Source: Aphrocallistes beatrix (lineage: Eukaryota; Porifera; Hexactinellida; Sceptrulophora; Aphrocallistidae). Taken from it: 64,000 bases of DNA. The notes beneath the pieces are model-generated. The model searched no databases and was not told where the DNA came from. It saw only the letters and a list, made by a program, of their open reading frames with translations. This document shows, one piece after another, positions 1,574-58,785 of the stretch. The stretch is from the NCBI GenBank assembly GCA_963281255.1, contig OY725488.1:11009524-11073523 (forward strand), given 5' to 3'. Numbering within the stretch: position 1 is the stretch's first letter; every line of letters begins with the position of its first letter. The translations under genes were made by a program, and so were the position numbers.

Positions 1574-2701
1574 ATGATTTTCAGTAACAACTTCCATATC
1601 AAATTTGATCAAGATGTAACTTACTTCTACGTGACATATCTATGCCTATTCACTGGATTATCAGTGTTATGGGATGTCTACTTCATAAAGAGGATGCTGT
1701 ACTTCATTAGATTATATCGTGAGTCAATCGAAAAAGCTAAAACTGACATACTCGGTAACTCCTCAGAGCTAGCAGTCCATTATAAGGTTGAGATAGTCAA
1801 ATACGCGTTTCTGCTAACGATTAATATCATTGAGGTGAGTGCAATGGTGATGTTTGGGTTAGGCAACTCTTTAGCACGACGAAATAACAGCATAACAAAC
1901 AATTGCATCGGTAAAGAGAATTATAACAAAGAAATTGATCTCATTGGAAATCCAGTTAGATTTTTATTTTTGTCTTTTGCTAAAATCGGGTTATTATTCT
2001 CACTCTCAGTTGTTATCTGCCTCATGAAGTATCTGGATGTTACATACCACAACATCAATGGTAAACCGTTTCGATTCATCAAATCTTTTCTTCTGATTTT
2101 ATCTTTGATTTGCTTAGCTCTAATCGTAACTGGATCTGTCCCGCAATTGTTCATTTTGCATGAGTTCTTTGAACCTATAGTAGAATTTGTATATTTCTGT
2201 TTGTGGATTCGACAAACTCGAACCTTCTATAGAACATTGAAGTGGAGGTCGGTAGAGTTTCAGGTTAGAGGTAGAAGCATTCAGATGGTCAGGAGATCAA
2301 TTAAAGGCTACCGTCAGTTCGCATTCATTATGAGTTTAATGGGAATTGGGTTTGTGTGCATAATTTTGGCTGTGTTTTTAGAAACATATTTTTTCTTGTT
2401 TGTCACTGTGATTCACTACGGTCCTTGTCTATTCCATCGTCTTTACAATACTCCCTTATATCAACCAATATTTAACACACAACTTCAACTGGATGCTCTA
2501 TACACCTCTAATGCTGTGAGTTCAATCATTGCAACAACTTTAGGTATAATCGCGTGTTTTTCAATAGGATTACAGTACTCTTTGGTTACAGCCGTATTTT
2601 TTGGAGAGAAGCTATTGAGGAGAATGAATTACCGTTTTGGAAGAGTGCGTACAAGGTTCACTCCTAATCTTACCAACCCACTTCTCATTAATTCCCATTA
2701 A
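1574..2701 (+). CDS. Seven-TM family protein, subfamily A, copy 1 (intact)
   Basis: Single-exon ORF of 375 residues from the ATG at 1574; the frame is open back to a GTG at 1559 but the conserved ATG is preferred. Hydrophobic segments lie at about residues 18-38, 73-97, 130-153, 170-196, 198-213, 249-282 and 316-344. Basic residues cluster after TM1, after TM5 and in the tail, and the loop 98-129 has an NNS sequon and Cys111, so N-out/C-in is predicted. Family blocks are present: GSVPQ (187-191), TFYRTLKWRS (217-226), GPCLF (283-287) and RTRFTP (359-364). It points towards gene B (4193, minus strand). This is the only undamaged A copy in the window. Function unknown; a receptor-like role is inferred from topology and array structure only. 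Confidence 0.85.
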   Translation: MIFSNNFHIKFDQDVTYFYVTYLCLFTGLSVLWDVYFIKRMLYFIRLYRESIEKAKTDILGNSSELAVHYKVEIVKYAFLLTINIIEVSAMVMFGLGNSLARRNNSITNNCIGKENYNKEIDLIGNPVRFLFLSFAKIGLLFSLSVVICLMKYLDVTYHNINGKPFRFIKSFLLILSLICLALIVTGSVPQLFILHEFFEPIVEFVYFCLWIRQTRTFYRTLKWRSVEFQVRGRSIQMVRRSIKGYRQFAFIMSLMGIGFVCIILAVFLETYFFLFVTVIHYGPCLFHRLYNTPLYQPIFNTQLQLDALYTSNAVSSIIATTLGIIACFSIGLQYSLVTAVFFGEKLLRRMNYRFGRVRTRFTPNLTNPLLINSH

Positions 2702-4192
2702 AATTATGTAATTTTCCTTCTATTTCTTTATTCTTTTAATGTATTTTCATTTGAAAGTTTCATTAAAATAATATCAAGATGTCAGTTACTTTGCATTTAG
2801 GGCCATTCTAAACAGAGTTTCATCCAAATGTATCCAGCATGCCTACATGTCTATAAATTTAAATCAATACAGAACGGAAATTAACCTAAACTTATATTAA
2901 TCTTCTAGTAGTATTAAATGCATAGGATCATATAAGCTAGTCGTATAAAAGTGATCAGAGGGATGTTTTAGAGTTAAATCTTATAAAATGTTCGATGTTC
3001 GAAACTATGATTCAGAGTTATTAGAATATCATATTTTCATATATTGAGATTAGACTTGAAATTACCTCTGAAAAATGTATGTTTAAAAACAGTTTACAAA
3101 CGCACTCTATTAACTAAAGTTATTTTCGGATATTATGCATGCAACATACATAGAAATACGTAATGTGGATAAGCACAATGGCTTGTACTGGACTTTGTAT
3201 TGCAATGTAACATGATTTAAACTTTTTATTTTAGAAAACAAACCCATTTCACGCACTTGAACTGCGCGGGAGGCAAACAGTTTGTGTTGTATAGATTCAT
3301 GCCAACTTGAGCCATGATAAAAGCTGGACGCAGTGTTAAATTTTGCGGGATATGGCGGGACGCAATAAAAAAGTATTGTTCATAGAATCATAAAAAAGCA
3401 GGGTATATTAGAAATTTTCATTTAAAAGCGGGACACTTGTGAAAATTAGCTCAATAGAGTGAAAAGAGCGGGACGTCCCGACAAAACGTGGCAGTTAGCT
3501 GTTTGCGTAAGAGTGGAGGATTGAAATATTGTATGTACCTTGTATTAAATATCTTCACTGAACAATGGATACATAGGAACCTAGACGAGTCCTCTGATAT
3601 TATGAACTTATTTAAGAATTTGTTATTTGCACTATATTTGAGATTTATAACTTCTCGACAAATTCTCACAAATCTAAGCATCGGACATACTAGTGTGTTT
3701 CTTTTGTCGACATCAACAATGATCATGTGTTGAAAAGAAAGGGTTTAAATTTCTTTTTGATATATACATTCTGAGAAGTTAGAATCCTTCAAGTCAAAGC
3801 ATTATCTAGGAGTGCGAGACACTTCCTTAAGAGCATTTATTTCAGCCTAGTCGTATTTAGGAACGCAACATCCTTGAATATTCCCAATACTATAAAGTTA
3901 TTCAGCGGCATAGCCACATCGGAGCATATCCGCACATGCCTAGTGACTTCTTTTGCTGCCCTTGTAGACATAATCGGTTGACTTTGTCAACAAAATTAAT
4001 TTTATATCACTTTTAAATTGATCAGAGTCCTTTTTCACATTATTTAAATAAATTGAAAGTTTCTTCATTAATTTAATTGTTGCAAATGTGTATACATGAA
4101 CAGTGTCCATTAGGCTAAGATAAAATTAATTCACACAAACTTTACATGCATCATTGTATAGTCACAACTTTATCTCTTCTAAGCATTGAGTT
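2702..4192. other. Spacer between convergent A and B genes, unit 1
   Basis: No gene is supported. The stretch around 3150-3290 matches 14090-14215 and 23340-23480, downstream of the other A genes, so it is part of the duplicated cassette. The GC-rich string ACTGCGCGGGAGGCAAAC is shared in part. ORFs on both strands around 3450-3730 overlap each other and look non-coding. The interspersed repeat at 3340-3500 is listed separately. Confidence 0.5.
3340..3500 (-). repeat. Interspersed repeat with GGGACGTCCC palindrome, copy 1
   Basis: It contains repeated GCGGGAC strings and GCGGGACGTCCCG at about 3469. The reverse complement resembles 39245-39360 and 53505-53605, which carry GGGACGTCCCGC (or a close variant) and several GTCCCGC motifs about 40 nt apart. 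No terminal inverted repeat or target duplication was found, so the class is unknown. Confidence 0.45.
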
Positions 4193-5356
4193 TCAATCTG
4201 TTCCATTAGAAAGCAGAGACTCATGAAGGGGAGGCGTAAACCTGGTACGTGATTTGTAGAACCGAGACCTCAATTTCATCCAAAGGATTTTTCCGAAAAT
4301 AAAGACACTTGCCAATATGTATTCCACAGTAATCAATGCTGATCCTGTAAATACGAAGAATGTTACGAAATATGAAAATACTTCATTCGTAAGGTTTAGA
4401 GCATCAATCTGCTTCTGCGTGTTCAAAAGAGGCTCGAAGTAGGTGGTTCTATATAAATAGTTGAACAGGCAAGGACCATTGTAAATTGCTACTGTGACTA
4501 AGAAAAAGTATTGGGTTATCATTTCAGCGATGAAAAAGCAAGCGTAGACAATACTCATACAACTTGAGATGATCGCAAACTGATGGAAACTGATAACAGA
4601 CCTTCTGACAATCGTTTCGCTCCTACCTCTCACTCTATACTCTATGCTCCTCCATCTCAGACATTTGTAGAATGTCCGATTACATCTTAACCAGATGATG
4701 AAGTAGATAGACACTATAATTGGTTCAACTAACTTATCAAATATCATTAGTTGAGGAACTGAGCCAGATATTGCGTGGAAAATACTGATTAGCGATGTTA
4801 TTATGAGGAAACGTTTAATCCATTTGAAAGGGTCAATATCGATTTCATGATATGCAATTTGTAGATACTTCACAAGGCAGATTCCGAATGCAAAAGAGAA
4901 TATTAAGCCAACTTGTGATATCGAAATTAGAACAGGAAATATAGGATTCGCCAAAGATAGTTTTAAATCTAGCGTTTGAAGACTAAACTCATGACTGCAG
5001 TCAGTAATTGAACTGTTTGAAGGATAGCTATTGTTGGAAAGTGAATTCGGCAAAGCTACAATCCCAGCTCCCAGTGCGTATATTATGATTGTAGCAAACT
5101 CTGCGGCATTAATTAGAAGTAAGAAAATATTCGTTATCATATCCACTTTGTGAATACGAGCTGTTTCTTGGATATTTCCGAATGAATCATTCCTTATATT
5201 CTTCAAGCAATCTCGAAACATCCTGAAATGATAATTAATTTGTTTGATGAAGTATGTATTCCAGATTATGGAGAGCAATCCTACAATCAATATGACAGAA
5301 AACAATCCAATTATTTGAGAATATTTGATGTAATACAGCACGTTATTATTGACCAT
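4193..5356 (-). CDS. Seven-TM family protein, subfamily B, copy 1 (only intact B)
   Basis: Single-exon ORF of 387 residues, beginning MVNNNVLYYIK and ending SLLSNGTD. It aligns with subfamily C without gaps through the RTRFTP block at residues 370-375. Hydrophobic segments lie at about 15-36, 72-98, 139-162, 180-205, 208-223, 261-292 and 327-355. The loop after TM2 has sequons NNS (108-110) and NSS (114-116) and Cys120. GSVPQ (198-202), TFYKCLRWRS (228-237) and GPCLF (294-298) are present. It is convergent with A and runs in the same direction as C, about 690 bp upstream of it on the plus map. All other B copies in the window are truncated or decayed. Biochemical role unknown. Confidence 0.85.
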   Translation of the reverse strand: MVNNNVLYYIKYSQIIGLFSVILIVGLLSIIWNTYFIKQINYHFRMFRDCLKNIRNDSFGNIQETARIHKVDMITNIFLLLINAAEFATIIIYALGAGIVALPNSLSNNSYPSNSSITDCSHEFSLQTLDLKLSLANPIFPVLISISQVGLIFSFAFGICLVKYLQIAYHEIDIDPFKWIKRFLIITSLISIFHAISGSVPQLMIFDKLVEPIIVSIYFIIWLRCNRTFYKCLRWRSIEYRVRGRSETIVRRSVISFHQFAIISSCMSIVYACFFIAEMITQYFFLVTVAIYNGPCLFNYLYRTTYFEPLLNTQKQIDALNLTNEVFSYFVTFFVFTGSALITVEYILASVFIFGKILWMKLRSRFYKSRTRFTPPLHESLLSNGTD

Positions 5357-6046
5357 ATTGAGTTAAAGAAACAAATTGGAATAAATGATTTAATCTACTA
5401 ACATAGTCTAATGCATTTATAGATCTACACAAGCTAATCACATGGGTAATTTAACCCTTTCTATTGTGACATAATGTACATGTGTAACGTATATTTTATA
5501 AAGAGATTAAATCATCTCCAATGTAGTGTGGCATGATACGCTTACCATCAATGAATTTTCCCTTCTACTAATATTTTATCAAAGATGAAGATTATTTGTA
5601 CACTAGTGGTGAGTAAGTGTTTTTTGCAAACCATTGTACTTTTTAAAAGATATGATATTATGATACACTTACAAAGCATTAGTTTATTCTGAGTACAGAG
5701 TGTAACACAATACTTTGGTTAACAGATTGTATAGATATCTGTTTGTAAGCAAAGTATTTAATTATTAATGCAGCTTGTGCAAGGAGTACTTTTACGGGAT
5801 AGACGGCGTGCTAGGCCCGTATGTATTTATGAATGTACCTGTTCGTTTTATTAACTAATAAAGAGATTAAACACCAATATTAATCAAGGAGAATGCAAAT
5901 AGATATAAAATATACAACGATATGAATAATATCTACAAAGTTGCAACAGCTATATAGGATCATCTGGATCATACTTTTGGTAGGTATACACAAAACATGC
6001 TAGCAATTAAGTGTAGAGTGAACATCTAATGCACTCAAGTATGATT
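5357..6046. other. B-C spacer, unit 1
   Basis: No gene seen. It is homologous to 14560-15250, 25500-27056 (with insertions), 29720-30448 and 49212-49870, so it is the standard B-to-C spacer of the array. The string GACGGCGTGC at about 5801 recurs in every copy of the spacer and is a useful marker for aligning units; its meaning is unknown. Confidence 0.6.
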
Positions 6047-7240
6047 CTAAAAATGATATCTTCGCACTTTTTCCCCGCCTATTAATCCTGTTTGGAGACC
6101 AGTTGAACTAAGCCTAGGTGTGAACCTAGTACGGATTTTACAGAAACGAGTTTTCAGTTTCTTCCAAAGGATCCTTCCGAAATATACGAAAGTTGCCAAT
6201 GTATATTCCAAACATAACAGCACAGAAGCTGTCAATACTAGGAATGTTGTGATGTAGGAGAGAATCTTATTGGTCAGTTCCAAGGCATCAATCTGTTTCT
6301 GCGTAGTTAGAAGAGGCTTGTAGAATGCAGTTCCATATAAATAATTGAATAGACAAGGACCATCGTAAATAACTGTTGCGATTAGGAAAAAGTATTGAGT
6401 GATCAATTCAGAGAGAGCAAAACAGGAAGCGATGATGAACATACAACTCATAATGATCATGAACTGTCGGTAGCTAATAACTGAGTTTTTCACAGTCCTG
6501 TTGCTATAACCTCTGACTTTGAATTCTATACTTCGCCATCGCAGTGTTTTGTAGAATGTTATGTTGTTCTTTATCCAAATATAGAGATAGACAAATAAAA
6601 TTATCGGTCCGACAAACTTCTCAATGAACATCAACTGAGGAACAGACCCAGTTATTGTAATAATAATTCCCACAAAAATAGTCATTATGAGGAATCGTTT
6701 GATGAATTTAAAAGGATCGATATTCATCTCATGGTATACAATGTGAAGGTACTTTACAAGACAAATCCCAGATGCAATGGATAATATGAGGCATACATGT
6801 GCAATTGTTACTAAAATGGAAAACAGAGGATTTGCGAGTGCCAATTTCAAATCAATCGTTTGGAGGTGGAGTTCATTACTACAGTTATGAAGTGTATTAT
6901 TTTGTAGGAAAGTGTTGCTTGAATGGGAATGGTTCATGATTACAGGGAATCCTCCCAGCGCATATATTACAACTGCTGCAAACTCTGTTACGTTAATTAT
7001 CAGCAGGAATACTTTTGTAACAATCTCTATCTTGTAGTTGCGTGTTTCTTCAGGGAAATTTCTGATCGGATTTGTTCTAGCCTTTTTCAGACAATTTCGA
7101 TATACTTTAACCAGATAGACTAGTCTCTTATTGAAGAATACATTCCAGATAGAGGAAAGTATGACAGCAAGCACTATGCATGGATATAATGATATCATTT
7201 GGAGAGTTTTGATGAAATATAACATGTTGTGATTTGCCAT
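6047..7240 (-). CDS. Seven-TM family protein, subfamily C, copy C1 (intact)
   Basis: Single-exon ORF of 397 residues, used here as the C reference. Predicted TMs: 15-36, 72-94, 139-162, 180-205, 208-224, 261-292 and 327-355. ICL1 (37-71), ICL3 (225-260) and the C-tail (356-397) are strongly basic. ECL1 (95-138) has sequons NHS (103), NNT (114) and NCS (119), and Cys120. The last outer loop has GPC with Cys296, a possible disulfide partner of Cys120 (inference). No cleavable signal peptide is seen. Conserved blocks: CLVKYL (160-165), GSVPQ (198-202), TFYKTLRWRSIEF (228-240) and RTRFTP (370-375). The ATG is fixed by the MANHN start shared by almost all copies and by the TATA-like box 35-46 nt upstream. 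Likely a plasma-membrane receptor or channel-like protein; ligand unknown. Confidence 0.87.
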   Translation of the reverse strand: MANHNMLYFIKTLQMISLYPCIVLAVILSSIWNVFFNKRLVYLVKVYRNCLKKARTNPIRNFPEETRNYKIEIVTKVFLLIINVTEFAAVVIYALGGFPVIMNHSHSSNTFLQNNTLHNCSNELHLQTIDLKLALANPLFSILVTIAHVCLILSIASGICLVKYLHIVYHEMNIDPFKFIKRFLIMTIFVGIIITITGSVPQLMFIEKFVGPIILFVYLYIWIKNNITFYKTLRWRSIEFKVRGYSNRTVKNSVISYRQFMIIMSCMFIIASCFALSELITQYFFLIATVIYDGPCLFNYLYGTAFYKPLLTTQKQIDALELTNKILSYITTFLVLTASVLLCLEYTLATFVYFGRILWKKLKTRFCKIRTRFTPRLSSTGLQTGLIGGEKVRRYHF

Positions 7241-7274
7241 TTTAAATGTTTGTTTGACTTTAGATGTTAGAATA

Positions 7275-7286
7275 CATTTATATATC
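7275..7286 (-). promoter_or_regulatory. TATA-like box of C1
   Basis: On the coding strand this reads GATATATAAATG, 35-46 nt before the ATG. A TATA-like box sits at the same distance before the other C genes (16474, 28276, 31677, 38193, 46591, 52446, 55034 and 58829), commonly reading GATATATAAATATAATC. If it works as a TATA box, the 5' UTR would be only about 5-20 nt. Confidence 0.5.
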
Positions 7287-7439
7287 TTCAGACGTGAACT
7301 TGTGATAGGTAACCCATCTCATGCTTATACATATATGTTTATAAATTTATCTCTGTGATTAATTATGCATAAATCAGTGTTGTAATATCTTTTTAAATTG
7401 GAGACATATTTTTTCTAAATTTCAACGCTATACTAGAAA

Positions 7440-7520
7440 TGAGACTTATTGAAAATGATTGAGCATAATTAGTTCTCCTCTGATAAACTTTATAATCATA
7501 ACAGTTATTGAGCAATAGCT
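7440..7520 (-). promoter_or_regulatory. Conserved upstream block of C genes
   Basis: On the plus strand this holds CTTATT then AAAATGATTGAGCATAATTAG, followed by a pyrimidine run, GATAAACTT, TAATCATAACAGTTATTGAG and CAATAGCT. Versions lie about 190-270 nt upstream of the ATG in all C copies (for example 16630-16715, 31830-31905, 42000-42075, 52595-52675, 55203-55275 and 59000-59075). It may be a shared regulatory module, or simply be kept by recent duplication. Confidence 0.35.
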
Positions 7521-7584
7521 AGTGAAGATATACACACATAAACAAACATCAATCGAGTTTTAATAGTATATATATATATATATA

Positions 7585-8527: not shown

Positions 8528-8535
8528 TCAGGTTC

Positions 8536-9120: not shown

Positions 9121-9677
9121 CATGAACATTCAGAATTAGTATATCTTGGGATTTTTTTCCTTTATATAAATATTGTAAACAAAGATTTACGAATAATTTC
9201 TCATATAGATTCGAAGATATAATATTTGAAATCTACAGCACTAAAAACTCCATGTCACCCGTTGGAAGCTAGTCTCCAGCATGTTTTTCAAAAAATCATC
9301 AAATGGTGAAAAAATATGAATATAAAGGTGTGAAAATATGCACATACTCTTTTTTATTGCCACACACTATAATACATTTCAGATATCAAACATTGGTTGT
9401 TGCTTTGAAGTATTAATAACAATGACGATCTATTGTAGTGTCGTACTTGAACAGTGATTTCTATTGTGATAGTGCGGTCATTTATTTGTATAGAAAAGGT
9501 GTGAAAAATTGTTTTCCATTTTCTTTTGCAGAGGTGTGTAAGTTTTCGCTTAGATCTTAGAACTTAATCATATCATTTGGCACCTACATGCCAATTTTCA
9601 CATCTCTATGATATTCCAATTCTTCAATCAATTGGACAAACAATTAAAACATCCTAGCATTTTAATATATACTAAGA
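9121..9677 (-). mobile_element. Helitron-like element, family 2, truncated at its 3' end
   Basis: The right edge reads ATTTTAATATATACTAAGA then T, which is the reverse complement of the family 5' end. The body matches 35542-36604 in the same orientation, including the AGGTGTGAAAATATGCA region and CAATTCTTCAATCAATT. The GC-rich 3' terminus is missing at the left edge. No ORF. Confidence 0.6.
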
Positions 9678-9789
9678 TTACAAAGCTGAAATATTCAAGT
9701 ATTTACGCCTTTTAAGAACTAATATCACTGAAAGTTGTACCATACTGCTGTAAAGAATCGAAGCAGGGACACCTTGGATTAACATAGAC

Positions 9790-10084
9790 AATTTGAGCAT
9801 TAACTGCACATCTGGGAGTGTGTTCAACATTGATTCAGCTCTAATAGTAGAAAATCCATTCGCTGCAATACTCGAACTTGTTTCATATTATCTGTTATTT
9901 GTATCTCAAAATACCTAGACGTTAAATGCCCCAATCCCAACCGTGAACCGTCTCAGTTTATTAAATACTTTTTCTTTGTCTCATGTTTGATTAGAGTTCT
10001 TCTCATCATAACAGGTTCCATTCTTCAAGTTATCATCTTTCGAAAACTATTTCAACTGATTGCAGTCATTCATTTTTCGAGAGT
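9790..10084 (+). pseudogene. Relic of a fourth subfamily (D), unit 2
   Basis: Reading frames 9790-9909 and 9908-10084 translate to pieces clearly related to the array family. The first has an NCT sequon and a VENPFAAILELVSYY stretch equivalent to the start of TM3 (ANPLFSILVTIA in C). The second has KYLDV, then REPSQFIKYFFF and LLIITGSI, equivalent to KYLDV, KPFRFIKSF and LIVTGSVPQ of A. Stops and frame changes lie between them, and N- and C-terminal parts were not found. This subfamily differs from A, B and C, and its only other clear copy is also dead (18112-18285). Confidence 0.65.
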
Positions 10085-12584: not shown

Positions 12585-13714
12585 ATGATTTCCAGTATTA
12601 ACTTCCAAATCAAACTTGTTCAGGATATAATCTACTCCTACGTGGCTTATATAGGCATATCCATTACGCTATCAGTGTTATGGAATGTCTATTTCGTGAA
12701 GAGGATGCTGTACTTCATTAGATTATATCGTGAGTCAATGGAAGAAGCAAAAACTGACATATTCGGTAACGCTTCTGAACTAGCAGTCCATTATAAGGTT
12801 GAGATAGTCAAATACGCGTTTCTATTGGCGATCAATATCATTGAAGTGAGTGCAGCGGTAATGTATGGATTATTCAGCACTTTACCACTGAGAAATAACA
12901 GTACAAAAAGCAATTGCACCATTGTGGATAGTCATAGCATACAATTAAGTGATTTTATTGGAAATCCAGTCGAATTATTTTTTCTATGTCTTGCTAAAAT
13001 GGGGTTACTATTCTCCCTCGCACTTGTGATCTGTCTCATGAAGTTTCTGGATGTCACATACCATAATATCAATGGTAAACCGTTTCGCTTTATCAATTCT
13101 TTTCTTTTGATCACATTTTTGATTGGAGTAGTCCTAATTCTACCTGGATCTGTCCCTCAATTGTTCATTTACTAAAAGTGTATGAGCCCATAATACAATT
13201 CAGTTATTTCTGTTTGTGGCTGAAACAAGCTCGCACCTTCTATAGAACACTGAAGTGGAGATCTCTAGAGTTTCAGGTTAGAGGGGGAAGTACTCAGATG
13301 GTCAGGAGATCAATCAAAAACTATCGTCAGTTCGCATTCATCATGAGTCTAATGGGAATAGGAATTGTGTGTATACTTTTGACTGTGTTTATTGGCACAT
13401 ATTTTTCCTTGTTTCTCATTGTGGTTCGCTACGGTTCATGTGTATTCCATCATCTCTACAATACTCCTCTCTACCAACCACTTTTCAACACGCAGCTTCA
13501 ACTGGAAGTTCTACGCATTTCTTCTACTGTGATTTCAAGGATTGAGATAACTTTGAGTATAATCGCGTCCATTTTAATAGGATTTCAGTACTTTTTGGTT
13601 TCAATGATATTTTTCGGAGAGAAACTATTGAGGAGAATGAATTATCGTTTTGGAAGAGTGCGTACAAGGTTCACTCCTAATCTTACCAACCCACTTCTCA
13701 TTAATTCCCAATAA
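12585..13714 (+). pseudogene. Seven-TM subfamily A, copy 2, single frameshift
   Basis: Full-length A relative with its start at 12585 and TAA at 13712-13714. The first frame runs through TM4 and GSVPQ and stops at 13173-13175; the second frame resumes with the TM5 region and continues to RTRFTPNLTNPLLINSQ. Comparison with copy 3 (about 22360) shows one base missing near 13167-13172. Apart from this, both halves look like well-conserved coding sequence. Either a young pseudogene, a segregating null allele, or an assembly error. ECL1 keeps NNS and NCT sequons. Confidence 0.8.
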
Positions 13715-14242
13715 TATCCTGTAATTTTTTCTCTGTTTCTCTATATATTTAATGTATTTTCATTTGTAAATTTCATTGAATTAATATCATTGTGCTATCT
13801 TGCTTGCACTTCATATACAATGGAATTCGCTTATTAGCAACTCGAGTTTTGCTCATAAAATAGTTGCTAACATGCGAAGATGCTATTAAGAGAACAGAAT
13901 TAACACAAAATCTTCACCTGGGACCTAAAAATTGGTTGCTAAATACGTATGCGAATTCCAATGTATATATGATATCATATATACAAATTACTTAGGCTTG
14001 AGATTGCTTCTGAAAACTTTATATCTAAAAACGATTTACTATATAAACTAAAGTGCTATCTTTAGTACATTTGCATACACAATTCCATAATGTGGATATC
14101 CGAGATAACTTGTACTATTCTTTATTCCAACATTGCATTGCAGGGTATACTATTTAAACCTTTTATTATAACAAAAGAAAGCTCATTTCGCGCACCTAAC
14201 CTGCGCGGGAAGCAAACACATGTCCGTTTGAGTCGCCTATTA
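13715..14242. other. A-B spacer, unit 2
   Basis: Matches unit 1 at about 3060-3290 in parts. Contains the small MITE at 13818-13963. No gene seen. Confidence 0.5.
13818..13963. mobile_element. MITE with CAATGGAATTCGC-type ends, TA target
   Basis: Left end CAATGGAATTCGCTTATTAG and right end GCGAATTCCAATG form a near-perfect 13-bp inverted repeat, flanked by TA (13816-13817 and 13964-13965). GTTGCTAA motifs recur inside both arms. The equivalent spacer of unit 3 (about 23000) lacks it. TA duplication suggests the Tc1/mariner-pogo group. Confidence 0.6.
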
Positions 14243-14557
14243 CGAAAGTGAATTTGGCATAGCTACCATCCCAGCACCCAGTGTGTATATTAAGATCGTG
14301 GTAACTCTGTGGCATTAATTATAAGTAAGAACATATTTGTTATGATATATTTGTGAATACGTGCTTCTTCTCGGATATTCCCGAATTAATAATTCCTTAC
14401 ATTCTTCAAGCAATCTCGATACATGCTGAAATGATATTTAATTTTTTTAATGAAGTATATATTCCAGATAATGTAAAGTAATCCTAAATCAATATGACAG
14501 AAAAAATCCCATAATTTGAGAATTCTTTGTGTAATATAACACGTTATTATTGATCAT
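14243..14557 (-). pseudogene. Seven-TM subfamily B relic, unit 2 (5' part only)
   Basis: Reverse-strand sequence corresponds to the first roughly 105 codons of B (start equivalent at 14555-14557, through TM1, ICL1, TM2 and the start of ECL1). There are frameshifts; everything from ECL1 onward is missing. It sits where intact B is in unit 1. Confidence 0.7.
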
Positions 14558-16439: not shown

Positions 16440-16473
16440 TTAAAATGTTTATTTGAGTTTAGATGTTGGATTA

Positions 16474-16485
16474 CATTTATATATC
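16474..16485 (-). promoter_or_regulatory. TATA-like box of C2
   Basis: Same motif and spacing as before C1: coding strand GATATATAAATG, 35-46 nt before the ATG. Confidence 0.45.
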
Positions 16486-25359: not shown

Positions 25360-25360
25360 G

Positions 25361-25480: not shown

Positions 25481-25499
25481 CGCCTCATTCATAGATCTA

Positions 25500-45363: not shown

Positions 45364-46557
45364 CTAAAAATAATATTTTCCAACCTCTTCTTTTCTTATC
45401 AATCCTGTTTGGAGACCAGTTGATCTAAGCTTTGGTGTGAACCTAGTACGGATTTTGCAGAAACGAGTTTTCAGTTTCTTCCAGAGGATCCTTCCGAAAT
45501 ATACGAAGGTTGCCACTGTATATTCCACACCTAGCAACACAGAAGCTGTCAATACTAGGAATGTTGCGCTGTAGGAGAGAATCTTATTGGTCAATTCCAA
45601 GGCATCAATCTGTTTCTGAGTAGTTAGAAGAGGATTGTAGAATTCAGTTCCATATAAATAATTGAATAGACAAGGTCCATCGTAAATAACTGTTGCGATT
45701 ATGAAAAAGTATTGAGTGATCAACTCAGAGAGCATTAAACATGCAGCAACGATGGACACACAACTCATAATGATCATGAACTGTCGGTAGCTAATAACTG
45801 AGTTTTTCACAATCCTGTTGTTACAACCCCTAACTTTGAATTCTATACTTCTCCATCGCAGTGTTTTGTAGAATGTTATGTTGTTCTTTACCCAAATAAA
45901 GAAGTAGATAAATAGAATTATTGGTCCGATAAACTTCTCAATGAACATCAACTGAGGAACAGACCCAGTTATTGTAATGAAAATTCCCATCAATAATGTC
46001 ACTATGAGGAATCGTTTGATGAATTTAAAAGGATCGATGTTCATCTCATGGTATACAATGTGAAGGTATTTCACAAGACAAATCCCAGATGCAATGGAGA
46101 ATATGAGGCATACTTGTGCAATTGCCATTAAAATGGAAAACAGAGGATCTGCGAGCACCAATTTCAGTTCAATCGTTTGGAGGTGAAGTTCACTAATACA
46201 GTTATGAAATGTATTATTTTGTAGGAAAGTGTTGCTTGAATAGGAATGATTCATGACTACAGGGAATCCTCCCACCGCATATATAACAACTGCTGCAAAC
46301 TCTGTTATGTTAATTATCAGCAGAAATATCTTTGTAAAAATCTCTATCTTGTAGTTGCGTGCTTCTTCAGCGAAATTTCTGATCGGATTCGTTCCTGCTT
46401 TTTTCAGACAATTTCGATACATTTTTACTAAATGGACTAGTCTCTTAATGAAGAATACATTCCAGATTGAGGGAAGTATGACAGCAAACACTATGCATGG
46501 ATAGAGTGATATCATCTGGAGAGCTTTGATGAAGTATAATATGTTGTGATTTGCCAT
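45364..46557 (-). CDS. Seven-TM family protein, subfamily C, copy C7 (intact)
   Basis: Single-exon, 397 residues, all family blocks. The sequon at the conserved ECL1 Cys is lost (HNCIS instead of HNCSN). TM6 carries CVSIVAACLMLSEL as in C3 and the C8 fragment, and the tail reads TPKLRSTGLQ as in C11, so it is mosaic relative to its neighbours. ICL1 has VHLVKMYRNC and KKAGTNP. TATA-like TATTTATATATAC at 46591-46603; two 30-bp repeat units lie in the upstream block. Confidence 0.87.
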   Translation of the reverse strand: MANHNILYFIKALQMISLYPCIVFAVILPSIWNVFFIKRLVHLVKMYRNCLKKAGTNPIRNFAEEARNYKIEIFTKIFLLIINITEFAAVVIYAVGGFPVVMNHSYSSNTFLQNNTFHNCISELHLQTIELKLVLADPLFSILMAIAQVCLIFSIASGICLVKYLHIVYHEMNIDPFKFIKRFLIVTLLMGIFITITGSVPQLMFIEKFIGPIILFIYFFIWVKNNITFYKTLRWRSIEFKVRGCNNRIVKNSVISYRQFMIIMSCVSIVAACLMLSELITQYFFIIATVIYDGPCLFNYLYGTEFYNPLLTTQKQIDALELTNKILSYSATFLVLTASVLLGVEYTVATFVYFGRILWKKLKTRFCKIRTRFTPKLRSTGLQTGLIRKEEVGKYYF

Positions 46558-47244
46558 TCTAAATGGTTGATTGATTCTGTTGTTGGATTGTATTTATATA
46601 TACTTAGTATATTCAGAAAGTGCAATGTGATTGGTACGCATCCCATCGTTGATATGTATAAATGTATCTTTGTAATTTTTCTTAAGTCAGCTTTAATGTA
46701 TAATGCTCAATGAATTTCATTTTTTTCTGACTTTCAATGTTACCACCTGAGGCTTATTCAGAATGATGAAGTATAATTAGTTTCACTTTACTTGAATGAA
46801 ATATAATTAGTTTCACCTTACTCAAATTTTGTAATCATAACAGTTATTGAGCAATAGCTATATGTCCCAAATGAATTGCCTATCTCCTATCTCGCTTATC
46901 TCATTTCATTATCAGGTTTCATATATCTCTCAGTACTAATAAGTGTAATAGTTTTAGTCAATCATTCGATTTTATAGCGGTATATGTTTTATTTTTGTTT
47001 TATTGATAGTGCGGGAACAAGGAATCTAGGGTAAAATTATCACTATATGATCTGTAGATTATTGTGCAGATCCGTTTAAATATTTTAAAACCTGTATATT
47101 TGATAACTTTTGAAATCTTGTAGTAATTTTGAAATACTTAAAAGAGTATATATATGTGTTATTTCGAAATAAGGTACTAAAGTGTGTTAGGTTACAAGAA
47201 TTAGTGGACTTCTGACTTCAATGAATTCATACTTAAAGCATATA
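46558..47244. other. C7 promoter and post-C spacer
   Basis: Aligns with 28243-28740 and with 29010-29235. An internal part of the usual spacer is missing around 47000. No gene. Confidence 0.5.
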
Positions 47245-48862: not shown

Positions 48863-49210
48863 GTGACAGACCATTCGAAAGATAGTTATTGTTCGAAAGT
48901 GAATTTGGCATAGCTACCATCCCAGATCCCAGTCGGTATATTAAGATTGTGGTAAACTCTGTAGCATTAATTATAAGTAAGAAAATATTCGTTATGATAT
49001 ATTTGTGAATACAGTTTCTTGAATATTCCCAAATCAATCATTACTTGCATTCTTCAAGCAATCTCGATACATCCTGAAATGATAAATTTTTTTTTATTAA
49101 GTATATGTATTCCAGATGATGGACAGTAATCCTACAATCAATATAACAGAAAACAATCTTATCATTTGAGAATATTTAATGTACTAATATAACACGTTAT
49201 TATTGATCAT
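48863..49210 (-). pseudogene. Seven-TM subfamily B relic (5' part), before C8
   Basis: Codons 1 to about 115 of B with frameshifts (start equivalent 49208-49210); TNIFLLIINATEF, MVAMPNSLSNN readable. Same breakpoint and flanking repeat as the relics at 29372 and 44318. Confidence 0.72.
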
Positions 49211-49879
49211 ACTGAGTTAATGAAAAAAATCGGAATAATTTATTTGATCTATAGCATAGTTTAATGTTTCTATAGATCTATACAAGCTAATCACTTGGGT
49301 AAATTGAGCCTTTCTCCGCTGATATAATGTACACGTGTAACATATGCATTTTCAATGTATTGTGGTATGATACGCTCACCATCAATGAATTTTCCTTTCT
49401 ACTAATATTTTATCAAAGACAAAGATTATTTGTACAATAGTGGTGAGTAATTGTTTTTGCAAACCATTGTACAATTCAAAAGATATGATATAATGCCACT
49501 TGAAAAGCATCGATTTATTCTGAGTACGGAGTGTAGACACAATACTTTGGTTAACAGATTGTATAGATCTCTGCTTGTAAGCAAAGTATTTAATTATCAG
49601 TGCAGCTTGTGTAAAGAGGTACTTTTACGGAATAGACGGCGTGCTAGATCCGTATGTACTTATGTATGCACGTGTTCATTTTCTTATTTAATGAATAGAT
49701 CAAACACCAATATTAATCAAGAATACTGTAAACAGATAGATAATACACAACGATATGAATAATATTTACAAAATTTCAACAGTTATATAGGATCATCCTG
49801 CTGGTTCATACTTTTGGTAGGTATACACAAAACCTTCGGGTAATTAAGTTTAAATGAACATGTTTCACTTAAGATGATT
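49211..49879. other. B-C spacer before C8
   Basis: Standard spacer, closest to 5357-6046 and 29720-30448, with the GACGGCGTGCTAG marker at about 49636. A plus-strand ORF here (49451-49762) lies wholly in spacer sequence and is not called. Confidence 0.45.
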
Positions 49880-50311
49880 CTAAAAAATATATCTTCAAAC
49901 CTCTTCCTTGCATATCAATCCTTCTTGGAGACCAGTTGATCTAAGCCTAGGTGTGAATCTAGTACGGATTTTACAGAAACGAGTTTTCAGTTTTATCCAA
50001 AGGATCCTTCAGAAATATATGAAAGTTGCCAATGTAGATTCTACACCTAGCAACACAGAAGCTAACAGTACTAGGAATGTTGTAATGTAGGAGAGAATTT
50101 CACTGGTGAGTTCCAAAACGTCAATCTGTTTCTGCGTAGTTAGAAGAGGCTCGTAGGATGCAGTTCCATATAAATAATTGAATAGACAAGGACCATCGTA
50201 AATAACTGTTGCGATTATGAAAAAGTATTGAGTGATCAACTCAGAGAGCATTAAACATGCAGCAACGATGGACACACAACTCATAATGATCATGAACTGT
50301 CGGTAGTAATT
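49880..50311 (-). pseudogene. Seven-TM subfamily C, copy C8, 3' fragment
   Basis: Only the portion from the YRQF motif before TM6 to the tail remains. At 50311 it joins post-C spacer sequence (TAATTTTGAAATAATT), so the 5' two thirds and the promoter are deleted. A TGA at 50009-50011 replaces the Gly codon of YFGRILW at the TM7 exit. TM6, GPCLFNYLY and TM7 are still close to C7. Confidence 0.8.
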
Positions 50312-51218
50312 TTGAAATAATTCAAAGTGCATATGCATATGCATATGTTGTATTTTCAGTGTTTTTAAACGAAATTTAAAATTTTATTTATCATATAAAT
50401 AAACTTTAATTATAATTCTGAAACTGTATTATATCAATAGATTGGGTAATCGTGTTTATTAGTACTATCAACATACTAAAACTTCCGTATATTCACTACT
50501 ACGATGTATGTTTTTGTATCCTAGTTTTTTGATGAAGTACATATTCCAGATGATGGACACTAATCATGCAATCAATATGACAGAAAAAATATAACACGTT
50601 ATTATTGATCATACTGAGCTAATGAAACAAATCGGAATATTTGATTTGATCTAATGCCATAATGCCACAAGCTATTATACAAGCTACTATGCTCTAATGC
50701 CACAAGCTAATTATACTTGGGTAATTTAACCCTTTCTCTGCTCATATGATGTACACGTGTAAGATCTGTACTATATAAAGGGATCATCTTCAATGTAGTG
50801 TGGTATGATATGATCACAATCCATGAATGTTCCCTCCCACTAATAGTTTATCAAAGACGAAGAATATTTGTACACTAGTGGTGAGTAATTGTCTTGTGCA
50901 AAGCAAAGATATGATTAATATCACTTGAAAATTGAGCATTTTATTTTGAGTACGGAGTGTAGACTGCAGATTCTGTGAGGAAATGCTTTTACAGCATAGA
51001 CGGCGTGCAACGTCCGTATGCATTTATATATTCACATGATCATTTTCTTAACTAATAATGGGATTAAACATCAGTATTAATTAACATATAAGATAATACA
51101 CAACTATATGAATAACAAGTAAGAAATTACAGCAGTTATAGAATCATTTAGCTCAGGCCTTTCGTAATTTACACACTATAATTTCAGTTGAAATATCCTG
51201 ATTACCACAAGTATGATC
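50312..51218. other. Rearranged spacer between C8 and C9
   Basis: 50312-50520 is post-C spacer material, followed by a short B relic (50526-50612), then the B-C spacer from about 50690 with the GACGGCGTGCAACGT marker at about 50999. CATATG repeats (GCATATGCATATGCATATG) lie at about 50331. No gene. Confidence 0.45.
50526..50612 (-). pseudogene. Very short B relic (5' end)
   Basis: Only the start region and TM1 of B are recognisable (start equivalent 50610-50612, GATGAAGTACATATTCCAG near the other edge), with internal deletions. Confidence 0.5.
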
Positions 51219-52412
51219 CTAAAAATAATATCTTTTCAACTCTTCTCTGCTTAATAATCTTTCTTGGAGATCAGTTGAACTAAGCCTAGGTGTGAACCTA
51301 GTTCGGACTTTACAGAAACGAGTTTTCAGTTTCTTCCAAAGGAGCCTTCCGAAATATACAAAAGTTGCTAATGTATATTCCAAACCTAGCAACACAGAAG
51401 CTGTCAATAATAAGAATGTTGCGACGTAGGAGAGAATCTTATTGGTCAGTTCCAAGGCATCTATCTGCTTCTGCGTAGTTAGAAGAGGTTTGTAGAATGC
51501 AGTTCCATATAAATAATTGAATAGACAAGGACCATCGTAAATAACTGTTGCGATTATGAAAAAGTATTGAGTGATCAGCTCAGAGAGTATAATACATGCT
51601 GCGATGATGAACATACAACTCATAATAATCATGAATTGTTGGTAGTTAATAACTGAGTTTTTCACAATCCTGGTGCTACAACCCCTAACTTTGAATTCTA
51701 TACTTCTCCATCGCAGTGTTTTGTAGAATGTTATGTTGTTCTTTACCCAAATGAAGAGATAGATAAATAGGATTATCGGTTCAACCAACTTCTCAATGAA
51801 CATCAATTGAGGAACAGACCCAGTTATTATAAGGAAAATTCCTATCAATAATGTCACTATGAGGAAACGTTTGATGAATTTAAAAGGATCGATATTTATC
51901 TCATGGTATTCAATGTGAAGGTACTTTGCAAGACAAATCGCAGATGCAATGGAGAATATGAGACATACTTGTGCAATTGTCACTAAAATGGAAAACAGAG
52001 GATCAGCAAGCGCCAATTTTAGATCAGTTGTTTGGAGGTGAAGCTCATTGCTGCAGTTATGAAATGTATTATTTTGTAGGAAAGGTTTGTTCGAATAGGA
52101 ATGGTTCATGATTACAGGGAATCCTCCCAGCGCATATATTACAACTGCTGCAGACTCTGTTACGTTAATTATCAGCAGAAATATCTTTGTAAAAATCTCT
52201 ATCTTGTAGTTGCGTGCTTCTTCCCTAACATTTCTGATCGGATCAGCTTTAGCATACTTTATACAATTTCGATACATTTTAACTAAATAGACTAGTCTCT
52301 TAATGAAGAATACATTCCAGATAGAGGGAAGTATGATGGCAAACACTATGTATGGGTAGAATGATATCATTTGGAGAGCTTTGATGAAATATAATATGTT
52401 ATGATTTGCCAT
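51219..52412 (-). CDS. Seven-TM family protein, subfamily C, copy C9 (intact)
   Basis: Single-exon, 397 residues from the MANHN start at 52410-52412. The frame is open 27 codons further upstream to an ATG at 52493, but that extension runs through the TATA-like box (52446-52458) and is not conserved, so the inner start is chosen. Distinctive: NCIKYAKADP in ICL1, NHSYSNKPF and LQTTDLKL in ECL1, CLAKYL instead of CLVKYL. The three ECL1 sequons and Cys are present. Its flanks match those of C5. Confidence 0.87.
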   Translation of the reverse strand: MANHNILYFIKALQMISFYPYIVFAIILPSIWNVFFIKRLVYLVKMYRNCIKYAKADPIRNVREEARNYKIEIFTKIFLLIINVTESAAVVIYALGGFPVIMNHSYSNKPFLQNNTFHNCSNELHLQTTDLKLALADPLFSILVTIAQVCLIFSIASAICLAKYLHIEYHEINIDPFKFIKRFLIVTLLIGIFLIITGSVPQLMFIEKLVEPIILFIYLFIWVKNNITFYKTLRWRSIEFKVRGCSTRIVKNSVINYQQFMIIMSCMFIIAACIILSELITQYFFIIATVIYDGPCLFNYLYGTAFYKPLLTTQKQIDALELTNKILSYVATFLLLTASVLLGLEYTLATFVYFGRLLWKKLKTRFCKVRTRFTPRLSSTDLQERLLSREELKRYYF

Positions 52413-53793: not shown

Positions 53794-54987
53794 CTAAAAA
53801 TAATATCTCTGCACCTCTTCCCTGCCTATTAATCCTTCTTGGAGACCAATTGATCTAAGCCTTGGTGTGAACCTAGTACGGACTTTACAGAAACGAGTTT
53901 TCAGTTTCTTCCAAAGGATTCTTCCGAAATATACGAAAGTTGCCAATATATATTCCACACCTAGCAACACAGAAGCTGTCAATACTAAGAATGTTGAAAT
54001 GTATGATTGAATCTCATTGGTCAGTTCCAAAGCATCAATCTGTTTCTGCGTAGTTAGAAGAGGTTTGTAGAATGCAGTTCCATATAAATAATTGAATAGA
54101 CAAGGACCATCATAAATAACTGTTGCTATTATGAAAAAGTATTGAGTAATCAACTCAGAGAGAGCAAAACAGGCAGCGATGATGAACATACAACTCATAA
54201 TGATCATGAACTGTTGGTAGTTAACAACTGAGTTTTTCACAATCCTGGTGCTACAACCCCTAACTTTGAATTCTATACTTCTCCATCGCAATGTTTTGTA
54301 GAATGTTATGTTGTTCTTTATCCAAATATAGAGATAGACAAATAGAATTATTGGTACGATAAACTTCTCAATGAACATCAATTGAGGAACAGACCCAGTT
54401 ACTGTAATGAAAATTCCCATCAATATAGTAATTATGAGGAATCGTTTGATGAATTTAAAAGGATCGATTATCATCTCATGGTATTCAATGTGAAGATACT
54501 TCACAAGACAAATCCCAGATGCAATGGAGAATATAAGGCATACTTGTGCAATTGTCACTAAAATAGAAAACAGAGGATTTGCGAGTGCCAATTTCGAATC
54601 TATTACTTGTAGATGAAGCTCACTACTGCAGTTATGAAGTGTCTTATTTTGTAGGAAAGTGTTGCTTGAGTAGGAATGATTCATGACTACAGTGAATCCT
54701 CCCAGCGTATATATTACAACTGCTGCAAACTCTGTTACATTAATCATCAGCAGAAATATCTTTGTAACAATCTCTATTTTGTAGTTGCGTGCTTCTTCAG
54801 GGAAATTTCTGATCGGATTTGTTCTAGCTTTTTTAATACAATTTCGATACATTTTAACCAGATAAACAAGTCTCTTAATGAAGAATACATTCCAGATAGA
54901 GGAAAGTATGACAGCAAGCACTATGCATGGGTAGAATGATACCATCTGGAGAGCTTTGATGTAATATAATAAGTTATGATTTGCCAT
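53794..54987 (-). CDS. Seven-TM family protein, subfamily C, copy C10 (intact)
   Basis: Single-exon, 397 residues, all blocks present. ECL1 has NHS, NKT and NCS sequons. LQVIDSKL before TM3 and LTNEIQSYIS before TM7 are shared only with C11, its tandem neighbour. ICL3 GCSTRIVKNS and VNYQQF resemble C9. TATA-like TATATTTATAC at 55034-55044. The unit C10 plus spacer (about 3.8 kb) is repeated as C11. Confidence 0.87.
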   Translation of the reverse strand: MANHNLLYYIKALQMVSFYPCIVLAVILSSIWNVFFIKRLVYLVKMYRNCIKKARTNPIRNFPEEARNYKIEIVTKIFLLMINVTEFAAVVIYTLGGFTVVMNHSYSSNTFLQNKTLHNCSSELHLQVIDSKLALANPLFSILVTIAQVCLIFSIASGICLVKYLHIEYHEMIIDPFKFIKRFLIITILMGIFITVTGSVPQLMFIEKFIVPIILFVYLYIWIKNNITFYKTLRWRSIEFKVRGCSTRIVKNSVVNYQQFMIIMSCMFIIAACFALSELITQYFFIIATVIYDGPCLFNYLYGTAFYKPLLTTQKQIDALELTNEIQSYISTFLVLTASVLLGVEYILATFVYFGRILWKKLKTRFCKVRTRFTPRLRSIGLQEGLIGREEVQRYYF

Positions 54988-55044: not shown

Positions 55045-57591
55045 CTTCAGATGGTAAACATTGTAAAAGGTACTCATCCCATGCTTAATGCACATACGTA
55101 CGTATGAATTTATCTTTTTAATTATGTTTAAGTCACTTCCAATGTATAATGTTTACTAAATTTGAAAGATACCACTTCTAACTTTCAACGCTGCACAGTG
55201 ACCCTTATTCAAAATGATGAAGCATAATTAGTTCCACCTTCTGATAAACTTGTAATCATAAGCAGTTATTGAGCAATAGTTATTTATCCATAATGGATTA
55301 CATATCTCTTATCTCACTTATCTCATTCCATCATCAAGTATCATATAGCTCTTCGTACTAATACGTGTAAAATAGTATTTGTTAGCCATATGAATTTATA
55401 CTTGGTTTTATATACCGTATAAGGTAGTACATACTGCTACATTGAAAATGATATCCATTAGATTGTGTCAGAATAACAATTCAATTGGAAAGGTATTAGA
55501 CATGTACTTTAGTGAAGGCCTTATATACAGATGATCGCTCTACACTGTCTCCTCGAGAGCACTGGACACCACAATAATTTGTATTATTATAAATTAAGTC
55601 AACTCCACTTAATCGGGACAACCGCTTAATTTGAAACAGGTCTCCAGGAATGGAATTATTTCGATTCATAGAAACTAGTGCGAATTTCATCGTTAATTGG
55701 AACCTCCGCTTAATCGGGTCAAAATATCTCGGACAAAAAGTGTCCCGATTAAGCAGAGTAACCAGAGCTTTATCTTGACAATAACACATCTTACTTACAG
55801 AAAGTCATATATAAATTTAGCCTATGTACATATCACGCAATAACGAAAAAAGTATTTCATTTTGTAATTTTGAAAAGTTGTAATAATTTTGAAATAATTT
55901 CCGATAAGCATATGTATGTGTCATTTAGAAATAAGATAACAAGACGATGTTAGGCCAGAAGAACTAGTGAACTTCTGACTTCAATGAGTTCATACTTAAA
56001 GCATACATTAACATCACCAAGAGAATTCTTCCTATGGAATGAAGTAATTCTAACCACTAAGTAATGATACAATAGTAATATTAGTAGAGTTTAGAAGAAG
56101 CTGCATATGCATCTTTGCTTACAAATATGAAAAATTACATAAAATGATTGGATATTAATGTATGCAGGTATATATAGATTTGTCTTAGCAGAGAATTAGT
56201 ATAGTTGAAAATCTTGCAACAATCAAGTAATCAAAATTTTTAACAGACATCAGAAGGTATATTTTTCTTATTCTAGATTATCTTATCATTCTGAATTTAA
56301 ATAGTCAATGATAAATTGAGCAATGGTGTTTTTAAATAACATTATTTGTTGATTTGTTAGTTTCATCAACAGTCTACAAGTAATGCTTAAACAATCCATT
56401 GATTCACTATTGCATCTTGAGCTTTTAGATTATTTTTTAGCTCACATTAATTAGATCAATTGCGTGCAACCTGCAACTCGCAGGGCTCTGTGTGCCGACT
56501 GCGAAGCAATGCTAAACCTGCTTTGATGCGACCGTGAGTGCACATTAAACTGGAATTTTGAGCAGATTTAACAACATCCTACGTTTAGATACTCCAAGCT
56601 CTCCTACTTATGTTTTTCAGGGAAAATTCACCAAGTATCTAAAATAGTTTGGGAGAAATAGGTTTTTCATACTAGATAGCTGTCGAAATATTCTCTTAAA
56701 TATATTGAACATATTATTTACGAATACAAATGCATCCCCAAAGTATCTAATTTTGTTGTTTTCAATCAATTAAACCAAAACTGTGCATGTTTTGATTTAT
56801 TCCAAACATCAGAACCATATTCTAATACAAATTCCTAAGGAAACAAATTAGATGAATACGCGAACTTGTTGAAATCCAACACATTAACTAACTATATCAT
56901 TTGGCGCAAAATATAAAGAGTCAAGATAAAATCTATATATTTTCGCCCTGTAAGCCCCGTGAATTAAAAGATCAGAGGTGCCAACTATAGATTTTTCCCC
57001 CGACACCCCACCGAAACTTTGCTTCCTAGCCCTTTGTGAACCATTAAGGCATGTGCCTGAACAACCCGCTGTAGATTAAAATATTGCGTCTGCACTTTGT
57101 ACTCAAAATTAACCAATGATTTGCCAGTGATATCGTATTACATACTTGTACTAGCCTCTGCAAGGAAATATTCGGGATACAAGTTTTATTTATATGGTCC
57201 CGACGTTTAGAATGATTCAAAATCAAGCACAGTTTTGGATTAATTGATTAATAACAACAAAATTAGACTCTTTTGGAATTCATTTGTATTCGTTAGTAAC
57301 ATATTTATTAATTTAAGATAATATTCTGACAAGTATCGCATAGAAAATGAAAAACGAACATAATATACACTATGGAGTCGAACTGTTTCTTAACTTACGA
57401 ATTCCGAGAAAATTTACTATAAAACTGATATTCATATTGCTATAAACGAAAATAATTACATCCACAATCTATCTCTAATTTTGGTGTTTTCAATCAAAAT
57501 TCAAAAGCAGTTATTATTAGACTCAAACCTAAGTAACATAAAACATGCAAGCAATTAAGTGTAAATGAATATATTTCACACAAGTATGATG
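55045..57591. other. Spacer between C10 and C11
   Basis: 55045-55600 aligns with 58840-59390, and 55880-56600 with 60440-61160. It includes the CTTAATCGGGAC MITE (55600-55774), the GC-richer GCGTGCAACCTGCAACTCGC segment at about 56461-56575 (also at 61051-61160), and an inverted pair at 56690-56850 and 57180-57310. No gene supported. Confidence 0.5.
55600..55774. mobile_element. MITE, CTTAATCGGGACA type, in the C10 unit
   Basis: CAACTCCACTTAATCGGGAC on the left and GTCCCGATTAAGCAGAGTAA on the right are inverted repeats; TCCGCTTAATCGGG lies inside. The same insertion is found at 59391-59560 in the C11 unit, so it predates that duplication. Confidence 0.55.
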
Positions 57592-58785
57592 CTAAAAATA
57601 ATATCTTCGCACCTCTTCCCTGCCTATTAATCCTTCTTGGAGACCAGTTGATCTAAGCTTTGGTGTAAACCTAGTACGGACTTTACAGAAACGAGTTTTC
57701 AGTTTCTTCCATAGGATCCTCCCGAAATATATGAAAGTTGCCAATATATATTCTACACCTAACAACACTGAACCAGTCAATATTAAGAATGTTGAGATGT
57801 ATGATTGAATCTCATTGGTCAGTTCCAAGGCATCAATCTGTTTCTGCGTAGTTAGAAGAGGTTTGTAGAATGCAGTTCCATATAAATAATTGAATAGACA
57901 AGGACCATCGTAAATAACTGTTGCGATTATAAAAAAGTATTGAGTAATCAATTCAGAGAGAGCAAAGCAGGCAATGATGATCGATGTACAACTCACAATA
58001 ATCATGAACTGTCGGTAGCTAATAACTGAGCTCTTTACGATATTGTCGTCGTAACCCCTAACTTTGCATTCTATGCTTCTCCATCGCAGTGTTTTGTAGA
58101 ATGTTATGTTATTTTTTACCGAAATATAGAGATAGAAGAGTAGAATTATTGGCTCAACAAACTTTTCAATTAACATCAACTGAGGAACGGACCCAGTTAT
58201 TATAAGAAAAATTCCCATCAATAAAGTCACCGTGAGGAATCGTTTGATGAATTTAAATGGATCGATGTTCATCTCATGGTATTCAATGTGAAGGTACTTT
58301 ACAAGACAAATCCCAGATGCAATGGAGAATATAAGACATACTTGTGCAATTGTCACTAAAATGGAAAACAGAGGATTTGCAAGTGCCAATTTCGAATCTA
58401 TTACTTGTAGATGAAGTTCACTACTGCAGTTATGAAGTGTATCATTTTGTTGGAAGGTGTTGCTTGAATAGGAATGATTCATGACTACAGTGAATCCTCC
58501 CAGCGCATATGTTACAACTGCTGCAAACTCTGTTACGTTAATTATCAGCAGAAATATCTTTGTAACAATCTCTATCTTGTAGTTGCGTGCTTCTTCTAGG
58601 AAATTTCTGATCGGATTTGTTCTAACTTTTTTCTGACAATTTCGATACATTTTAACTAAATAAACTAGTCTCTTAATGAAGAATACATTCCAGATAGAGG
58701 AAAGTATGACAGCAAACACTATGCATGGATAGAATGATATCATCTGGAGAGCTTTGATATAATATAATAAGTTATTATTTGCCAT
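57592..58785 (-). CDS. Seven-TM family protein, subfamily C, copy C11 (intact, last of the array)
   Basis: Single-exon, 397 residues. Start MANNNLL; ECL1 has NHS, NDT and NCS sequons and Cys120. It shares most features with C10, but the ICL3 stretch GYDDNIVKSS matches distant C2, including silent positions. The inner loop reads IECKVRG where others have IEFKVRG. The tail TPKLRSTGLQ is as in C7. TATA-like TATATTTATAC at 58829-58839. No further array gene was found to the right. Confidence 0.87.
   Translation of the reverse strand: MANNNLLYYIKALQMISFYPCIVFAVILSSIWNVFFIKRLVYLVKMYRNCQKKVRTNPIRNFLEEARNYKIEIVTKIFLLIINVTEFAAVVTYALGGFTVVMNHSYSSNTFQQNDTLHNCSSELHLQVIDSKLALANPLFSILVTIAQVCLIFSIASGICLVKYLHIEYHEMNIDPFKFIKRFLTVTLLMGIFLIITGSVPQLMLIEKFVEPIILLFYLYISVKNNITFYKTLRWRSIECKVRGYDDNIVKSSVISYRQFMIIVSCTSIIIACFALSELITQYFFIIATVIYDGPCLFNYLYGTAFYKPLLTTQKQIDALELTNEIQSYISTFLILTGSVLLGVEYILATFIYFGRILWKKLKTRFCKVRTRFTPKLRSTGLQEGLIGREEVRRYYF

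Follow-up and report, generated by a model that had tools for sequence, protein, structure and literature searches.

A tandem array of predicted seven-helix proteins, probably receptors with a G protein-coupled receptor-like fold, in the glass sponge Aphrocallistes beatrix

A stretch of 64,000 nucleotides (nt) from the glass sponge Aphrocallistes beatrix (assembly GCA_963281255.1, contig OY725488.1, positions 11,009,524 to 11,073,523; hereafter the window) contains a tandem array of genes from one family of predicted seven-helix membrane proteins. Using three window proteins as tblastn queries, we found 37 matched pieces, which were grouped into 24 loci between positions 1574 and 58785: 10 open genes, 4 genes that are nearly whole but broken, and 10 relics, one of them doubtful. 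The initial annotation had described about 23 genes and relics of a single family, 10 of them intact, an observation that was right and, if anything, understated. The open genes encode full-length proteins of 375-397 amino acids (aa), and three gene types make up the array, A and B on the minus strand and C on the plus strand. Protein identity to the A gene at 6047 is 82-87% for the other seven open A genes, 53% for the intact B gene and 37-41% for the C type. All loci listed here were found by tblastn; the open genes and the A-type gene at 40621-41814 also appear in the list of open reading frames.

1574-2701, plus strand: C-type gene, open, 375 aa (second AlphaFold2 target)
4193-5356, minus strand: B-type gene, open, 387 aa, the sole intact B gene in the window
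6047-7240, minus strand: A-type gene, open, 397 aa (first AlphaFold2 target)
9894-10055, plus strand: C-like relic (46% identity, E 2.5e-8)
12585-13711, plus strand: C-type gene, nearly whole, broken by frame changes
14305-14487, minus strand: B-type relic
15252-16439, minus strand: A-type gene, open, 395 aa
18117-18356, plus strand: C-like relic (31% identity, E 2.7e-7)
21784-22908, plus strand: C-type gene, whole length, one in-frame stop
23777-24750, minus strand: B-type relic with several frame breaks
27060-28242, minus strand: A-type gene, nearly whole, broken by frame changes
29365-29716, minus strand: B-type relic
30449-31642, minus strand: A-type gene, open, 397 aa
32680-32823, plus strand: doubtful relic (E 8e-4)
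36969-38159, minus strand: A-type gene, open, 392 aa, ending five residues short of its relatives (frame at 36981)
40621-41814, minus strand: A-type gene, whole length, one in-frame stop
44334-44658, minus strand: B-type relic
45364-46557, minus strand: A-type gene, open, 397 aa
48816-49210, minus strand: B-type relic
49883-50305, minus strand: A-type relic, C-terminal third
50513-50612, minus strand: B-type relic
51219-52412, minus strand: A-type gene, open, 397 aa (an upstream ATG would extend it to 424 aa)
53794-54987, minus strand: A-type gene, open, 397 aa
57592-58785, minus strand: A-type gene, open, 397 aa

The order of the genes records how the array grew. A composite unit of C (plus), B (minus) and A (minus) is present three times, at 1574-7240, 12585-16439 and 21784-28242, after which the array continues as B-A or A alone. 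Further copies of the 2.5 kb B-A segment found at 5002-7531 lie at 14244-16729, 29367-31910 and 44335-46782, with a shortened one at 48874-50310; their DNA identity is 83-85%. The B gene has decayed in every unit except the first, and the rightmost copies consist of A alone. The array thus arose through birth and death by segmental duplication, as the initial annotation had proposed, and tblastn places relics among the copies. We then compared the 8 open A-type genes in 28 pairs using our own Nei-Gojobori-type script, which gave a mean nonsynonymous divergence (dN) of 0.080, a mean synonymous divergence (dS) of 0.254 and a dN/dS of 0.31 (0.26-0.37); the A genes are under purifying selection. 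Regional values ranged from 0.12 in outer loop 3 to 1.13 in helix 2, which has a low dS (0.080). As 300-nt stretches of the window copies are 60-94% alike, whole copies match with E 0.0 and the mean dN/dS is 0.31, the likeness within the array is not due to chance.

The genome comprises 100.5 Mb in 28 contigs, with the window on a contig of 12.5 Mb (C1); two glass sponge assemblies described elsewhere are smaller, at 80.3 and 61.5 Mb (PMC10282587). Beyond the window, five protein queries located at least 151 distinct, non-overlapping family places, spread over 16 contigs. For each query 104-110 places were scored out of 410-469 first-look candidates, and 151 is a lower bound, all five lists still standing at E 5e-69 or below at their end. 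The largest shares lie on C1 (79), C13 (23) and C4 (14), and 44 further places surround the window within C1:10.86-11.20 Mb, the window's own loci excluded. We examined 125 copies, namely the 10 open window genes and 115 of the 151 outside places (4 were too short and 32 others were left out), a sample biased toward good copies; 109 have an open frame of at least 330 aa and 16 do not. All 109 open copies are single-exon over the length of the frame. One family member is identical with its flanks over 1,428 bases between the 6.1 Mb contig C4 (C4:4694318-4695445) and the 33.7 kb contig C5 (C5:5487-6614), likely an unplaced assembly duplicate.

In order to relate the family to known proteins, we searched Pfam with the three window proteins and 20 members of the alignment, taking matches up to E 10, and with 7 divergent members, taking those up to E 1. 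No family member reached a Pfam cut-off, and the 7tm_1 profile (PF00001) gave no match within the same limits. Weak matches appeared to DUF3176 (one member, E 0.0039, 17.9 bits, cut-off 27), YjcB (one member, E 0.016, 15.9 bits, cut-off 27), HXXEE (one member, E 1.7), OST48_MD (4 of the 20 aligned members, best E 0.02), SAM_KSR1_N (3 of the 20, E 0.037) and DUF2244 (one member, E 0.47); these were dropped because none reached its cut-off where one is given and none occurred in more than 4 of the 20. NCBIfam gave no match, and PDB sequences yielded nothing by profile and one match at E 1 with a single query. A profile comparison between the family and the single 7tm_1 receptor identified among 6 scored candidates of the genome returned a probability of 0.5%. 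Searches of GTDB genomes and IMG/VR with the family alignment, in collections that hold no sponges as such, produced 65 and 600 pattern matches, respectively, of which none was confirmed, and no account of the family was among the papers listed by searches of the open-licence PMC literature. The family therefore keeps the unnamed status it had been given: neither a convincing match nor a known non-receptor family emerged from Pfam, NCBIfam or PDB sequences.

Averaged over 37 members, the hydropathy profile has the expected peaks, in segments that we read as seven helices. In the 109 open proteins, the inner loops and tail carry mean net charges of +3.1, +2.3, +8.6 and +5.7 and the outer segments -0.7, -1.2, -0.2 and -0.8. 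Of the 37 members, 29 have a glycosylation sequon at N119 in outer loop 1; two other sequons, N83 in 24 of 37 (inside helix 2) and N61 in 8 of 37 (inner loop 1), would be unused with the N terminus outside. Altogether, hydropathy, loop charges and sequons support the predicted topology of seven helices with the N terminus outside and the C terminus inside, as proposed in the initial annotation, and they likewise bear out its contrast with the insect Gr/Or proteins. A topology of eight helices, drawn from the long helix 6, was rejected; it would place the +5.7 tail outside. AlphaFold2 models of the 6047-7240 (A) and 1574-2701 (C) proteins, of modest confidence (pLDDT 58 and 66), likewise predict a seven-helix bundle. 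Structure searches with both models listed only G protein-coupled receptors (GPCRs) among the best 50 matches per search, with class A, class T (TAS2R) and Frizzled receptors tied and no Orco, Or or Gr chain among them; the nearest solved folds of the predicted bundle would thus be GPCRs. A covariation test of the fold, independent of AlphaFold2, gave no support with about 51 effective sequences.

The family has a signature of its own. Residues kept in at least 90% of the 109 proteins include W32, E86, C120, C160, L165, H170, G198-S199, P201-Q202-L203, Y218, W222, L233, W235, R236, E239, R243, F260, G294-P295-C296, Y302, Y346, R365, R372-F373 and P375. Inner loop 3 (29 residues) and outer loop 2 (7 residues) have the same length in all 109. 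In 106 of the 109 proteins, C120 in outer loop 1 and C296 at the top of helix 6 are found together; both are predicted to lie outside, and we infer that they may form a disulfide. The published marks of class A are a D in helix 2, E/DRY in helix 3, CWxP in helix 6 and NPxxY in helix 7 (PMC12716839). In the 109 proteins there is no D at positions 74-88 of helix 2, CWxP is absent (0/109), DRY-like motifs occur in 2, at position 113 in outer loop 1, and NPxxY occurs in 13, at position 175 in inner loop 2. Outer loop 2 has no kept Cys that could form the class A disulfide between helix 3 and outer loop 2. The absence of DRY, NPxxY and other class hallmarks, noted from the window before these comparisons, extends across these proteins, with the two named motifs misplaced where they do occur.

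Set beside known receptor systems, the family shares its predicted N-out seven-helix bundle with class A GPCRs, including AqRho-A to E of Amphimedon, whose genes likewise stand in neighbouring groups of 2 to 8 according to their published description (PMC4302439). Unlike class A, it has no 7tm_1 match, no helix 2 D and no DRY, CWxP or NPxxY in place, and its 7-residue outer loop 2 has no kept Cys, whereas the first loop is long on both the inner and the outer side. TAS2R and Frizzled receptors tie with class A among the structural matches listed; unlike these, the family has no Pfam match, and it has no long N-terminal domain as in Frizzled. The RSF, Hi-GOLD, GPRch1-3 and GPCR-TKL/K families of choanoflagellates and early animals are GPCR-like and lie outside the older classes, as here, and the survey that defined them took in the Oopsacas proteome; our family differs in carrying neither a GOLD nor a kinase domain (PMC12716839). 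Insect Or/Gr and gustatory-receptor-like proteins have length, seven helices and large divergent clusters in common with it (PMC9998090, PMC7746228), but their topology is the opposite of the one predicted here.

To compare the two faces of the bundle, we measured variability by position. The outer halves of the helices are more variable than the inner halves (2.04 versus 1.41 bits; one-sided p 5.5e-7, in a test that uses helix limits set by us and treats positions as independent), as holds for 6 of the 7 helices. Variability is highest in the N terminus (2.89 bits) and outer loop 1 (2.62 bits) and low in inner loop 3 (1.45 bits) and the tail (1.53 bits). On balance, this pattern suits receptors that bind different ligands and share a single transducer. 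We consider it probable, though well short of certain, that the family amplified in this glass sponge consists of cell-surface receptors sharing a GPCR-like fold and that the array represents one of its clusters; this is supported by prediction and is unproven. In such receptors, the varied outer helix halves and the variable, mostly glycosylated outer loop 1 would bind different external cues, and the conserved inner face, made up of inner loop 1, the fixed-length inner loop 3 with its L/W/R/E/R residues and the RxRFTP tail, would engage one shared transducer. This transducer would most likely be heterotrimeric G proteins. The genome encodes G-alpha, with two one-frame matches that span nearly the whole domain and other matches in pieces. 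The private C120-C296 disulfide may do the job of the class A disulfide. By analogy, the likeliest role would be chemical sensing of the surrounding water or microbes.

The variability pattern has exceptions. Helix 4 reverses the outer-over-inner trend, outer loop 3 and the top of helix 6 are conserved (1.56 bits) and inner loop 2 is not (2.03 bits). The intronless structure, offered in the initial annotation as typical of receptors, holds as an observation in all 109 copies and tells us little as a clue, because two related glass sponges have 12,409 and 9,872 single-exon transcripts against 19,578 and 16,340 genes, more than half as many (PMC10282587). The strong conservation of outer loop 3, together with the lack of a sequence match to any receptor family and the modest AlphaFold2 confidence, would also suit a non-receptor seven-helix membrane protein, such as a transporter, scramblase or sorting/assembly factor, amplified for dosage or by chance. 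We regard this as unlikely, since the structural matches listed are GPCRs only and since outer-side variation combined with an inner face that stays constant suits varied ligands better than one substrate.

Slightly less probable still are receptors of GPCR-like fold that serve self/non-self or microbe recognition instead of sensing dissolved chemicals. The turnover and decay of the copies would suit such a role, and glass sponges expand other clustered families, including an A. vastus cluster of AIG1-domain genes that its authors tie to immunity (PMC10282587); however, the outer domains are small, the N terminus is short, with about 30 residues before W32 including helix 1, and Pfam finds no adhesion or immune domain. 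We hold it to be very unlikely that these are seven-helix ligand-gated channels akin to insect Or/Gr (7TMIC) with a reverse or mispredicted topology, even though they resemble those receptors in length, in helix number, in their long inner loops and in the extension of helices 5 and 6 past the membrane, and such large clustered families are known (PMC7746228). An intracellular N terminus is a mark of 7TMICs in the cited description (PMC9998090), whereas charges and sequons place it outside here, and none of the structural matches listed is an Or or Orco chain with the anchor domain and split helix 7 of Orco-like packing, which is nonetheless compatible with such channels. That the family lacks three features of class A (a 7tm_1 match, the motifs in place and the disulfide) and the N terminus of 7TMICs does not lower the claim that it would function in the manner of a GPCR.

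Some further features of the window and genome were recorded. The sole window frame of at least 150 aa outside the family encodes 157 aa on the minus strand at 24886-25359 and carries a RING finger at its C terminus (Pfam zf-C3HC4_3, E 7.5e-10). Positions 26176-26858, about 683 bases next to a broken-frame A-type gene, form a near-perfect palindrome (91.6% self-inverted; core arms of 237 nt, 95% alike and 23 nt apart), and a weaker one lies at 43322-43793 (74%). Copies of a dispersed repeat, each about 460-560 bases long and 76-89% alike, occur in both orientations at 9137-9680, 36051-36605, 42286-42834 and 62801-63260; the repeat is probably a mobile element that codes for no protein. A 0.7 kb direct duplication at 55865-56566 and 60441-61161 is 93% identical and younger than the surrounding gene copies. 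An Rfam search of the window gave no match. Elsewhere, in the region C7:4320263-4387820, a one-frame G-alpha match (C7:4386825-4387820) has three family members within about 70 kb, which may be chance. Contig C28 is mitochondrial (17,996 bases) and carries COX1, cytochrome b, COX2, nad5 and atp9 (Pfam ATP-synt_C, E 2.6e-12). TGA encodes Trp in its genes, 14 times in COX1. In glass sponge mitochondria, AGR codons are read as Ser. COX1 scored best with this reading, by a small margin (505.2 bits, versus 498.7 for Gly and 496.8 for Arg); all 16 of its AGR codons are AGA and none is AGG. A distinct mitochondrial code in glass sponges has been described (PMC10695373), and the Oopsacas mitochondrial genome is 19 kb with atp9, a gene found in nearly all sponges (PMC4520895). 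These mitochondrial features make a glass sponge the likely source of the genome.

It is tempting to speculate that neuron-less glass sponges evolved a chemosensory-type superfamily of their own, on a scaffold of GPCR type with no sequence relationship to any described class, in which the C120-C296 disulfide and a LKWRTxEFxVRG/RxRFTP transducer motif replace DRY and NPxxY; we put this forward tentatively, as possible rather than probable. If true, an early-branching animal without neurons would have a receptor repertoire sized like smell and taste sets, on a scaffold foreign to the family libraries searched. This raises the questions of which cells express the receptors, what activates them and whether a GPCR can function without DRY and NPxxY. 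A survey of Oopsacas reports eight G-alpha proteins and, in its signalling account, names no receptor other than Frizzled (PMC10280926); the family described here could supply partners for these G proteins.

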